From positions 1 through 55,830 of the forward strand of contig CALJER010000009.1 in assembly GCA_938074535.1 (NCBI GenBank): 55,830 bases of DNA, given 5' to 3'. The notes below the pieces were generated by a model. It saw only the letters and a list, made by a program, of their open reading frames with translations. It made no database searches and was not told where the DNA came from. This document shows positions 1-3,211 of this stretch, piece after piece (position 1 is the stretch's first letter; each line of letters begins with the position of its first letter). This DNA is from an uncultured archaeon (GTDB lineage Archaea > Hadarchaeota > Hadarchaeia > Hadarchaeales > WYZ-LMO6). Made by a program: the position numbers and the translations under genes.

Positions 1-1578
1 CTCCCATCCCACCCTTCCCAGAACCTCCGAGAGCCTCTCGCTGGAGGGCAGCCTCCCCTTCTCCTTCACCTCCTTCATCCAGAGGTCCAGCAGGGGCTTC
101 ACCGTGATGTCGAAGGCGCCCCCTGAGAGCCTGGAGTACTCGAGGGAGGAGAGCAGGAGGGAGAGGGTCTCCTCCGAGAGTCCCACCCAGGAAGTCCCGC
201 TGTGGTTCAGGAGGTAGATCTCCGCCCCCCTCTTCTCGGCGGACATGAGGCCCTCCACCCTCTTGATTTCCCTGTAAGCGGCTTCCACGGCCTTCTTCGC
301 CCTCGCCGTGTTCTCGTCCAACACCTGTATTTCCACGAACGTATCCATGGCCAGACCTTCCCCCACCACCCTGTCTCCCCTGACGTGGACGGTCAAGGGC
401 TGCACGGTCATGGAGCTCAGGAGGAGGGCGGTGAGGGCCGCCATTCCCAGGGTGGCTCCGGCCAGCTTCCTGCTTTCCCCTCCCAGCCTGGGAAGGAGGA
501 GGAGGGAGGAGGAGAGCAAGAGCTGGGAGAGGAGGAAGCCCCAGGCCATCCCCACCACCCCGAACCCCCTTCCCAGTACCACGATCCCTGCGAGTCCCAC
601 GGCCAGTGAGGAGGAATAGGAGAGGAGGACGGAGGAGGTTTCCTGCCTGGAGTAGAGGCGGGAGAGTTCGATCTGGGCGAGCACGGCGAGGGGGAGGGAG
701 AGGCTCATCACGCGCAGAACCTTTGCTCCCTCCCCGAAGCCAGGGAAGAAGGAGGGAAGGAACAGGGAGAGGAGGAGGGCGGAGAGGAGGAGGGGGAAGG
801 AGAGGAGGAGGGCCTTCTTTTCCGTTCTACCCACCCTCGTTCCCGCAGCCCTCTCCGGAAGGAGGTAGAAGAAGAGGATCTGGGGAAAGGAGGCGAAGAG
901 GAGGAAGAACCTGTTCCCGAACTGGTACATGCCCAGGTCCTCCCTCCCGAAGAGGGGTCCTATGACCACCTTGTCGAGGAGGTTGAAGGAAGCCGCTCCC
1001 AGGTCCACCGTCCACAGGCCCACCAGGAAGGCGGTGGGGGGAAAGGAGGGCTTTCCCCTCTTCACCCTGAGGAGGGGGAGGGAGAAGGGGAGGTAGGAGA
1101 GGGAGAGCCCCAGCAGGAGCCACCTCACCTCCCCCAGCCTGAGGTAGAGGAGGAAGGGGAGGAGGAGGGTGAGGGTCCTGGCCCCCGTCCAGAGCAGGAG
1201 GTACCCGAGGTAGGAGCGCCTGGAAAGCTCGAAGTGGAAGCTCAGGGAGAAGAGGGAGAAGGAGAGGAGGAGGAGGCCCGTCCACGGGTCCAGGAGGAGG
1301 GAGAGGAGGCCCCCCATGACGAGGGCGGGCAGGAGACCCAGAAGGAGGCAGCCCTCCAGCACCCCTTCCCCCTTCTTGGGATAGAGGACCAGGGAGGCCT
1401 TCCCCGCCCCCAGCAGGGAGATCCCCGAAAGGAGCATGGCCAGCGATACCTTCCAAGCCACCTCCCCATAGGCGAGGGGATGGAGGAGGAGGGCCAGCAG
1501 GATCCAGAAGAAGAAGCCGGAAAGAACGGCGAAGAGCTGTGCCGCTGCCACGTGGAGTACGCCACCTTTGGCCCCCAT
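1..1578 (-). CDS. Polysaccharide flippase fused to ApbE-type FMN transferase domain (3' end off window)
   Basis: The reverse strand reads without a stop from ATG at 1578 to the window edge (526 residues seen). Residues 1 to about 385 are a chain of hydrophobic helices typical of MOP/Wzx-type lipid-linked polysaccharide flippases. After a last helix ending near residue 390 the frame continues into an ApbE-like domain: AMDTFVEIQV near 411 (family MGT motif), RVEGLMS, EIYLLN, and GAFDITVKPLLDLW near 487-500. ApbE enzymes attach FMN to Thr of membrane or extracytoplasmic redox proteins. I translated the junction codon by codon and saw no stop or frame change. The C-terminal Mg-binding part lies outside the window. 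A TATA box at 1603-1609 sits 25-31 bases before the start, suggesting a leaderless transcript. The alternative is two separate genes read in one frame by chance. Confidence 0.75.
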   Translation of the reverse strand, partial: MGAKGGVLHVAAAQLFAVLSGFFFWILLALLLHPLAYGEVAWKVSLAMLLSGISLLGAGKASLVLYPKKGEGVLEGCLLLGLLPALVMGGLLSLLLDPWTGLLLLSFSLFSLSFHFELSRRSYLGYLLLWTGARTLTLLLPFLLYLRLGEVRWLLLGLSLSYLPFSLPLLRVKRGKPSFPPTAFLVGLWTVDLGAASFNLLDKVVIGPLFGREDLGMYQFGNRFFLLFASFPQILFFYLLPERAAGTRVGRTEKKALLLSFPLLLSALLLSLFLPSFFPGFGEGAKVLRVMSLSLPLAVLAQIELSRLYSRQETSSVLLSYSSSLAVGLAGIVVLGRGFGVVGMAWGFLLSQLLLSSSLLLLPRLGGESRKLAGATLGMAALTALLLSSMTVQPLTVHVRGDRVVGEGLAMDTFVEIQVLDENTARAKKAVEAAYREIKRVEGLMSAEKRGAEIYLLNHSGTSWVGLSEETLSLLLSSLEYSRLSGGAFDITVKPLLDLWMKEVKEKGRLPSSERLSEVLGRVGWE

Positions 1579-1602
1579 TCCCAGTCCCTCCCTTCAGGAG
1601 GC

Positions 1603-1609
1603 TATATAT
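1603..1609 (-). promoter_or_regulatory. TATA box of the flippase-ApbE gene
   Basis: TATATAT lies 25-31 bases ahead of the ATG at 1578 on the minus strand. This is normal TATA-to-start spacing for a leaderless archaeal mRNA. Confidence 0.6.
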
Positions 1610-1788
1610 GGCTCTGGATGGCATCTTCGGGAAGGCTGCTTCCGTCTTCTGGTGTGTGGGGTGAAGGCGGTGCGGAGCTCGGGTGGAGTACCCCACCGGG
1701 GGCGCTTCTACCTCTGCCGAGACCGGTGGCGGTCGGGCTGAACTGGTGGGGACCCTCCCCCGGCCTTCCGCGCTGTGCCGGCGGTGGG

Positions 1789-1796
1789 GATAAAAG
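1789..1796 (+). promoter_or_regulatory. TATA box of the MarC-family gene
   Basis: GATAAAAG ends 18 bases before the tandem ATG codons at 1814/1817. The spacing supports initiation there rather than at the in-frame GTG-type codon near 1775, which lies upstream of the TATA box. Confidence 0.55.
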
Positions 1797-1813
1797 GACT
1801 CCGGGGTAGGTGG

Positions 1814-2392
1814 ATGATGCTCGAGGAAGCTGGAAAGATTTTCTTGGCCCTCTTCGTGATCATGGACCCGTTCGCCAGCATCCCGATCTTCCTCCTGGTC
1901 ACCAAGGGGCTGGAGGGGAAGAAGGTGGACCGGGCGGCCGGCTACGCGGTGGGCGTGGCTGCCCTAGTCCTCTTTTTCTTCCTCTTCCTGGGGGAGCCCC
2001 TCTTCCGCCTCCTGGGAATTGAGTTCTCCTCCCTGAGGATCGGGGGAGGATTGGTGCTCGGGGTGCTGGGGATGGAGCTGGTGCTGGGCAGGAGCCTCCT
2101 GAGGAAGGAAAAGAAGGGCTCTCCCGCCCTCTCCCTGATAGGTACCCCCATGCTCACGGGTCCCGGGGTCATCGTCTCCACCATGATCTTCGTGAAGAGC
2201 TACGGGTACCTTCCCGTGGTTCTGGCCTCCTTCCCCCTCCTGGCTTCGAGCTGGGTGGTGCTCAGGCTCTCCTCCTTCTTCAGCAGGGTGCTGGGGAGGG
2301 AGGGGGTGGAGATCCTTTCGAGGGTGATGGGTCTCCTCCTGGTGACGATAGCCGTGGACCTGGTCATGGGGGGAATAGAGGCGGCCCTCTGA
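1814..2392 (+). CDS. MarC-family integral membrane protein
   Basis: This 192-residue hydrophobic protein has about six membrane helices and typical MarC-family motifs: FVIMDPFASIPIFL near the N terminus, IGTPMLTGPGVIVS in the middle (family PL..GPG), and a final helix LLVTIAVDLVMGG. MarC/UPF0056 proteins sit in the inner membrane; their role is unsettled, and the older link to multiple antibiotic resistance has been questioned. I start it at the first of two tandem ATGs because a TATA box sits just upstream. It is divergent from the flippase-ApbE gene and followed by about 155 bases with no recognisable gene. Confidence 0.85.
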   Translation: MMLEEAGKIFLALFVIMDPFASIPIFLLVTKGLEGKKVDRAAGYAVGVAALVLFFFLFLGEPLFRLLGIEFSSLRIGGGLVLGVLGMELVLGRSLLRKEKKGSPALSLIGTPMLTGPGVIVSTMIFVKSYGYLPVVLASFPLLASSWVVLRLSSFFSRVLGREGVEILSRVMGLLLVTIAVDLVMGGIEAAL

Positions 2393-2548
2393 GCGCAGCC
2401 TTCTGGCGGAGAGGTTTTTGAGCCGCGGCCGGTCCTCCTTTCCCGTTCGGCATGGTCCCCATGCCCGCGGGTCTCTGGACGCCCTTCACTGGGTGCAGGT
2501 GCCTCCGCCGCAGCCGGGGGAAAGGGGACCAAGGCGGGGGGAGAAAGT

Positions 2549-3211
2549 TCAGGGGCGGCCAAGCTTGGAGAGGTCCATCACCTCCCCTCCCTTCCTCCTC
2601 AGGAGTTCAGCGGGCAGATCCCACACCGCCCTCGCTCTCTCCACGATTACCCTGTCGCTGGAGGCCGAGACCTCGCAGGAGCTCACCTCCCTGTCCACCC
2701 CCTTCACCGCCCTGCACTTCGCCCTCACCCCGTACTTCTCCAGGATTTTGCCAGTCTCCCTGGCGAGTTCCCCGCTCCCGCTCGCCGGGCTATCGAAGAA
2801 AACCCTCACCTCCCCCGGCCCCGCCTCCCGGAGGAGAAGGGCCACCTCCTCCAGGGCCCCCCAGGTGTGCTCCCCCACCCTGTACTTCCCGAAGACCGTC
2901 CTCAGATCCCTGAGGAGACCGTCGTCGCACCTTATCACGGTATGCCCGAGCAGGAGGCTCTCGCACGTGATGATCACGTTGTACCCGTCCACCCCCAGGG
3001 TCCTTCCCCTGACCTCCCTCCAGGAGACCAGCTTCCCCCTGTTCCTCTCCGCCTCTTCCCTGGAGAAGACGCAGCGGGTGAGGAGGTGCCGCTCCCGGGA
3101 GGGAAGGCAGTAGTGGTCTGAGACCACCCTCACCGCCGTCTCCCTCGGATATCCCCTGTCCAGGAGGTACCGGAGGTCCCTGACGGCATCCTCCGTTTTC
3201 TCACTCCACAT
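2549..3211 (-). CDS. DUF434 domain protein downstream of leuS
   Basis: A 220-residue soluble protein matching the archaeal DUF434 family: an N-terminal helical part, then LGVDGYNVIITCESLLLG, a CDDGLLRDLR motif, and FFDSPASGSGELARE. The aspartates in the DGYN, DDG and FDSP motifs recall PIN/NYN-type nucleases, but that relation is my inference. The start overlaps the last 11 bases of leuS, so it is translated with the synthetases alaS and leuS as one operon. Function unknown; the context suggests a role in RNA or translation. Confidence 0.8.
   Translation of the reverse strand: MWSEKTEDAVRDLRYLLDRGYPRETAVRVVSDHYCLPSRERHLLTRCVFSREEAERNRGKLVSWREVRGRTLGVDGYNVIITCESLLLGHTVIRCDDGLLRDLRTVFGKYRVGEHTWGALEEVALLLREAGPGEVRVFFDSPASGSGELARETGKILEKYGVRAKCRAVKGVDREVSSCEVSASSDRVIVERARAVWDLPAELLRRKGGEVMDLSKLGRP

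Follow-up and report, generated by a model that had tools for sequence, protein, structure and literature searches.

The window, a stretch of 55,830 nucleotides, begins with a gene in which a transporter of the MOP superfamily and an ApbE-type FMN transferase are encoded as one chain. This fusion is neither an artefact nor an oddity, and its hosts are deep-subsurface archaea (Hadarchaeota, also called Hadesarchaea) and some bacteria. FAD is synthesized in the cytosol, and ApbE acts outside the membrane and needs FAD there; a natural transporter-ApbE fusion beside the rnf genes is a direct and testable hint at a second route of FAD delivery. We give an even chance to the reading that the protein is a one-chain FAD exporter and FMN transferase that matures Rnf. 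Both halves belong to known families; the joined form is apparently undescribed, as far as the open-access literature and our genome searches show, and no published description of a transporter-ApbE fusion or of its link with Rnf was found in that literature.

The fused gene, its missing half and its predicted fold

The frame lies on the minus strand (1578..1), starts with an ATG at 1578 and is stop-free up to the window edge, encoding 526 aa. The window is the entire contig C9 of its genome (G000; 1.2 Mb, 53 contigs, 94% complete), and therefore the gene is cut by the end of the assembly. Pfam ApbE (PF02424) matched aa 411 to 526 (E = 4e-22) over profile positions 1 to 109 of 266, which means that the window holds just the N-terminal part of ApbE; the same part matched PDB 1vrm (E = 1.9e-9), while the transporter half gave a weak match to PF13440 (E = 0.003). 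The earlier note, which had read this frame as a flippase fused in frame to an ApbE domain, was thus confirmed, and no stop or frameshift was found at 390-420. The features are as follows:

1..1578 (-), fused gene, first 526 of about 706 codons; open frame, fusion present in relatives, runs off the contig end at 1
481..1578 (-), transporter half, aa 1-366, with 12 predicted transmembrane helices, MOP superfamily (Wzx/PST type); AlphaFold2 models of relatives, Foldseek match to WzxE
409..480 (-), predicted 13th helix, aa 367-390, the signal-anchor helix of ApbE; models, least conserved part
1..408 (-), N-terminal part of the ApbE FMN-transferase domain, aa 391-526; PF02424 and 1vrm matches

A profile search with the fusion recovered the catalytic remainder, expected beyond the left edge, from the same genome, where it opens contig C7 (2-445, plus strand, 148 aa). 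A second Hadarchaeota genome (G001) encodes the protein intact, with 706 aa, and the C7 piece shares 80% identity with residues 559-705 of that protein; about 34 codons of the gene fall in the gap between the C9 and C7 pieces. After the C7 piece, on the opposite strand, comes a convergent operon of rnfB, rnfA, rnfE, rnfG, rnfD and rnfC. In G001 a single 366-kb contig bears, in this order, the rnf operon, the fused gene, marC, leuS and alaS, so that contigs C9 and C7 probably adjoin. When window positions 1578-3211 were compared with the G001 locus (L020, 11247-14289), the latter was seen to contain a gene for a beta-lactamase-fold hydrolase and a potassium-channel-like gene, both absent from the window genome. 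The link with rnf, the half on C7 and the spread to bacteria had not been part of the earlier note.

AlphaFold2 models of two relatives (pLDDT 75.7 for one; pLDDT 82.3 with pTM 0.76 for the other) predicted 12 helices of MOP type, a 13th helix and then the ApbE fold. With Foldseek, the first half matched WzxE best (TMt 0.70-0.72, probability 1.00), followed by MATE proteins (up to 0.66), and the ApbE half matched 1vrm (TMt 0.83) and FmnB. The mean number of lysines plus arginines was 0.8, 0.8, 2.6, 3.5, 4.0, 1.8 and 3.0 in successive inner loops and 0, 0, 0.5, 0.3, 0.4, 0.8 and 0.6 in the outer ones, a distribution that fits the positive-inside rule for an N-in protein and therefore predicts a C-out arrangement. 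In these models the ApbE domain is extracytoplasmic, the odd 13th helix keeping the topology right for it, and the earlier proposal that the FMN transferase faces the outer side of the membrane is supported by the predicted 12+1 helices and the loop charges. Stand-alone flippases aligned to fusion positions 6-378 and stand-alone ApbEs began near 375-410, so that a whole transporter appears to have been joined to a whole anchored ApbE.

The complete ApbE domain scored 283.8 bits with PF02424 in G001, 309.2 in G005 and 299 in Candidatus Hakubella thermalkaliphila (cut-off, 25.6), and each of the two pieces in the window genome was also above the cut-off. It could be aligned over its full length to 1vrm, FmnB and Escherichia coli ApbE, with the motifs GGIAKGYAxD, GGxxR, TSGDY, HHxxDPxTG and DALST retained. 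For its part, the transporter half exceeded the PF13440 cut-off in G005 (29.4 versus 23) and fell below it in the window copy; the Hakubella and G756 copies were below the cut-off for PF13440/PF01943, G001 gave no match, and no MatE domain (PF01554) was detected in the fused proteins at an E-value of 0.01.

Distribution and ancestry

A single-sequence scan of genome contigs gave nothing; an alignment of the flippase half, used as the query, then yielded six loci. The fusion was found in 6 of the 28 Hadarchaeota genomes (G000, G001, G003, G005, G012 and G023), G002 being too fragmented to tell. The fused ORF is uninterrupted in G001, G003, G005 and G023, contains one in-frame TGA in G012 and is split over two contigs in G000. 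Recoding of TGA in G012 was rejected, given that this is a single stop and that none occurs in the other genomes. Throughout the 28 genomes ApbE rose above the cut-off only as a transporter fusion, and no stand-alone ApbE was found in the fusion-bearing ones. Separate genes were looked for in relatives, which instead carry the fused form, uninterrupted in seven genomes. No further fusions were found among 394 archaeal genomes.

In bacteria, a search with the flippase profile detected the fusion in Hakubella (an uninterrupted 747-codon frame). In this genome the fusion is closely preceded by a TnpB-like transposon gene (L076, 1746-2885), which might have served to transfer the cassette. An uninterrupted 752-codon frame is present in the Dehalococcoidia genome AH-958-E22, with rnf away from it on another contig. 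The copy in G756, also uninterrupted, adjoins an FMN_bind protein gene, that in G864 is fused and cut by a contig end, and those in G884, G396 and G744 are transporter copies cut before ApbE could appear. Upstream of the contig-cut copy in G396 lie several tandem paralogous radical-SAM-like genes of the CxxxCxxC type (L130, 6118-12829). Two bacterial surveys, each of about 345 genomes, gave two well-separated groups of E-values, one below 1e-98 for the fusion-transporter family and the other above 1e-7 for everything else; the genome searches amounted to 1,294 genome-by-query scans in total.

Two copies depart from this form. In G742 the transporter ends in a TAA, and a separate frame encodes the anchor helix and about 60 ApbE residues before being cut short by recO; this locus (L126, 1-2200), in which the fusion has decayed or been split, has an FMN_bind gene nearby. 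G541 encodes a stand-alone transporter, the closest unfused relative, inside a glycosyltransferase cluster; the cluster (L125, 4406-9653) is of a glycosyltransferase and pyruvyl-transferase-like kind and stands beside a geranylgeranyl-reductase-like gene.

The fused ApbE domains grouped together, apart from the 13 archaeal ApbEs that stand alone (100/100). Similarly, the transporter halves formed a single clade with G541 and G742 against other archaeal flippases, G541 lying outside the rest. Because G742 grouped with G005 (95/91), nested inside the fused clade, its split form is probably a later decay of the ApbE half; a tree holding all fused sequences together was not rejected (p-AU 0.075). 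Archaea and bacteria were intermixed within the fusion family, and monophyly of Hadarchaeota was marginally rejected (p-AU 0.042). The simplest reading of these trees would be one old fusion that later moved between the domains, with or apart from rnf.

The Rnf neighbourhood

The fusion stands tail-to-tail with rnfB at seven loci (G000, G001, G003, G005, G012, G023 and Hakubella), that is, in Hadarchaeota and Hakubella wherever the contig shows that side. A full-length rnfC was found in G000-G005, and the rnf genes of G012 and G023 are cut by contig ends. In G023 (L022, 7433-7711) the rnfB that stands between the fusion and rnfA seems shortened, since only residues 10-92 of 265 match, without the ferredoxin domains.

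RnfG of the fusion-linked operons is an FMN_bind protein; in alignments to solved Rnf subunits it has [ST]GATIS, and RnfD keeps [ST]TATPL. At these motifs Rnf is known to carry covalent FMN. Covalent FMN on both RnfG and RnfD has been described (PMC12174285). The ApbE half very probably acts on Rnf.

Other archaea, including those of a Methanosarcina type (family f30, a label read from a multihaem cytochrome and the rnf gene order), have rnf genes next to a separately encoded ApbE and lack a transporter of the fused type in the vicinity. The fused transporter is therefore not obligatory, and FAD must get to ApbE by other means in these organisms. A separate MOP gene beside a stand-alone archaeal ApbE was considered as support for FAD export and set aside: the only case is a MATE gene of G056 at about 1.8 kb from its rnf-linked ApbE (L142, 5998-10368), which gives a weak hint and was not counted because two other, unrelated genes intervene, one of them on the opposite strand.

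A full rnf operon was also found in G004, an 85% complete genome in which neither the fusion nor any ApbE was detected. Its contig C14 (L026, 5394-5640) bears a short N-terminal remnant very like the stand-alone flippase of G541.

Proposed function and comparison with known systems

A MOP transporter joined to ApbE, the selection acting on it and a flavinylated complex next door are most simply read together as an FAD exporter that feeds its own enzyme. The first 12 helices would export FAD made in the cytosol, the 13th would carry the chain to the outside, and the ApbE domain would take the exported FAD, attach the FMN moiety to threonine residues in RnfG and RnfD and free AMP; in some bacteria the recipients would be FMN_bind proteins. 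The weakest step is FAD as the transported substrate, to which context and the gene fusion point and which could as easily prove wrong as right. Taken as a whole, the proposal of a novel mode of cofactor delivery outside the cytoplasm, in which Wzx-type MOP export of FAD leads to immediate flavinylation of Rnf on the outer face by way of one old archaeal-bacterial fusion, is tentative, its chance being slightly below even. If true, it would give archaeal Rnf a candidate FAD exporter, the first known to us, and a glycan-flippase fold a new cargo.

Several observations run counter to an FAD exporter. G004 has a full rnf operon without a detected fusion or ApbE; other archaea do with a stand-alone ApbE beside rnf; fusion genomes have, where seen, a second Wzx-type flippase, so that export capacity is not unique to the fusion; and the transporter half resembles WzxE more than MATE, its closest unfused relative lying among glycosyltransferases. 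The last of these makes the chief rival a transporter half that still flips a lipid-linked glycan, with ApbE as a passenger gaining a membrane position and FAD leaving by another route. An aspartate and a lysine in helix 7, together with many other residues, are indeed common to the fused transporters and the unfused flippases. However, the fused copies were not seen next to any glycan gene, their neighbours, where context was available, being rnf or FMN_bind genes; the second Wzx-type flippase of the fusion genomes, where seen, is separate from the fusion; and a glycan flippase gives no reason for the strict coupling to flavinylation. We regard this rival as unlikely, albeit a serious one. 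The earlier suggestion of a single protein for lipid-linked sugar export and flavinylation accordingly stands, as regards the sugar, for ancestry alone (WzxE as the nearest structure, the unfused G541 copy among glycosyltransferases) and fails for context, where the fused genes adjoin those of flavinylated RnfG and RnfD or of FMN_bind proteins.

Improbable, in our view, is a role of the 12 helices as a mere membrane anchor or a scaffold for docking to Rnf, transport having been lost. Any anchor would put ApbE outside, and the Methanosarcina-type ApbE, also beside rnf, is apparently held by one helix; but one helix is enough elsewhere, and the core polar residues of the transporter are kept. 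ApbE was the best conserved part (mean pairwise identity among the fused proteins, 56%), ahead of the transporter (44%) and of the 13th helix plus linker (28%). Between the window copy and that of G001, dN/dS was 0.154 for the transporter, 0.348 for the anchor helix plus linker and 0.135 for ApbE (a simple Nei-Gojobori count with synonymous sites partly saturated). On this count purifying selection acts on the transporter half as strongly as on ApbE, while the extra helix, the real anchor, drifts free of such constraint; the 12 helices would therefore be kept for more than anchoring. Finally, an assembly chimera, a frameshift or a read-through of two genes, which the contig end in the window copy, the separate halves and truncated ApbE of G742 and the TGA of G012 might bring to mind, was rejected as next to impossible, the fused frame being intact in seven independent genomes, archaeal and bacterial, and G742, nested with G005, having probably split later.

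The reading of the fusion as an FAD exporter joined to its enzyme can be set against five known systems. With known ApbEs (PF02424; Thermotoga maritima TM1553, 1vrm; FmnB; Ftp) the fused domain shares completeness, fold, motifs, the rnf neighbour and an extracytoplasmic location, here predicted. Those ApbEs are lipoproteins or single-anchor proteins, whereas here ApbE follows a 12-helix transporter as its C-terminal domain. A published survey required a signal peptide or a lipidation site (PMC8238504), and surveys of that kind would probably overlook transporter-ApbE fusions. With Wzx/PST flippases such as WzxE, the fused transporter has in common the 12-helix fold, the best structural match and the helix-7 Asp-Lys pair of unfused archaeal flippases, but it is short (about 365 aa), has very weak Pfam scores and is found in a context of flavinylation instead of glycan synthesis.

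The source of FAD for ApbE has been called an open issue, with the MATE proteins Bfe and YeeO, both known to export flavins, named as candidates for supplying periplasmic ApbE (PMC5655446). These belong to the same MOP superfamily; they are separate proteins, however, and the fused transporter half has no MATE Pfam match. No true MATE protein was found in the fusion-bearing Hadarchaeota, where weak PF01554 matches, if present, correspond to the Wzx-type paralogue; several of the fusion-family bacteria do have genuine MATE proteins, with no PF01554 match on a fusion. Dedicated delivery of FAD to ApbE has been proposed only for the ECF-type exporter EetB-FmnA of Firmicutes, EetB often co-localizing with apbE and rnf (PMC9973259). 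EetB (PF07456) is of an unrelated protein family and was absent from all 17 genomes tested, fusion genomes among them, while the control search found it in T. maritima and Lactococcus lactis. Trypanosomatids have ApbE-fumarate reductase fusions (PMC12052999), in which ApbE shares a chain with the protein that it modifies and is not extracytoplasmic, whereas in the protein described here its partner is a transporter.
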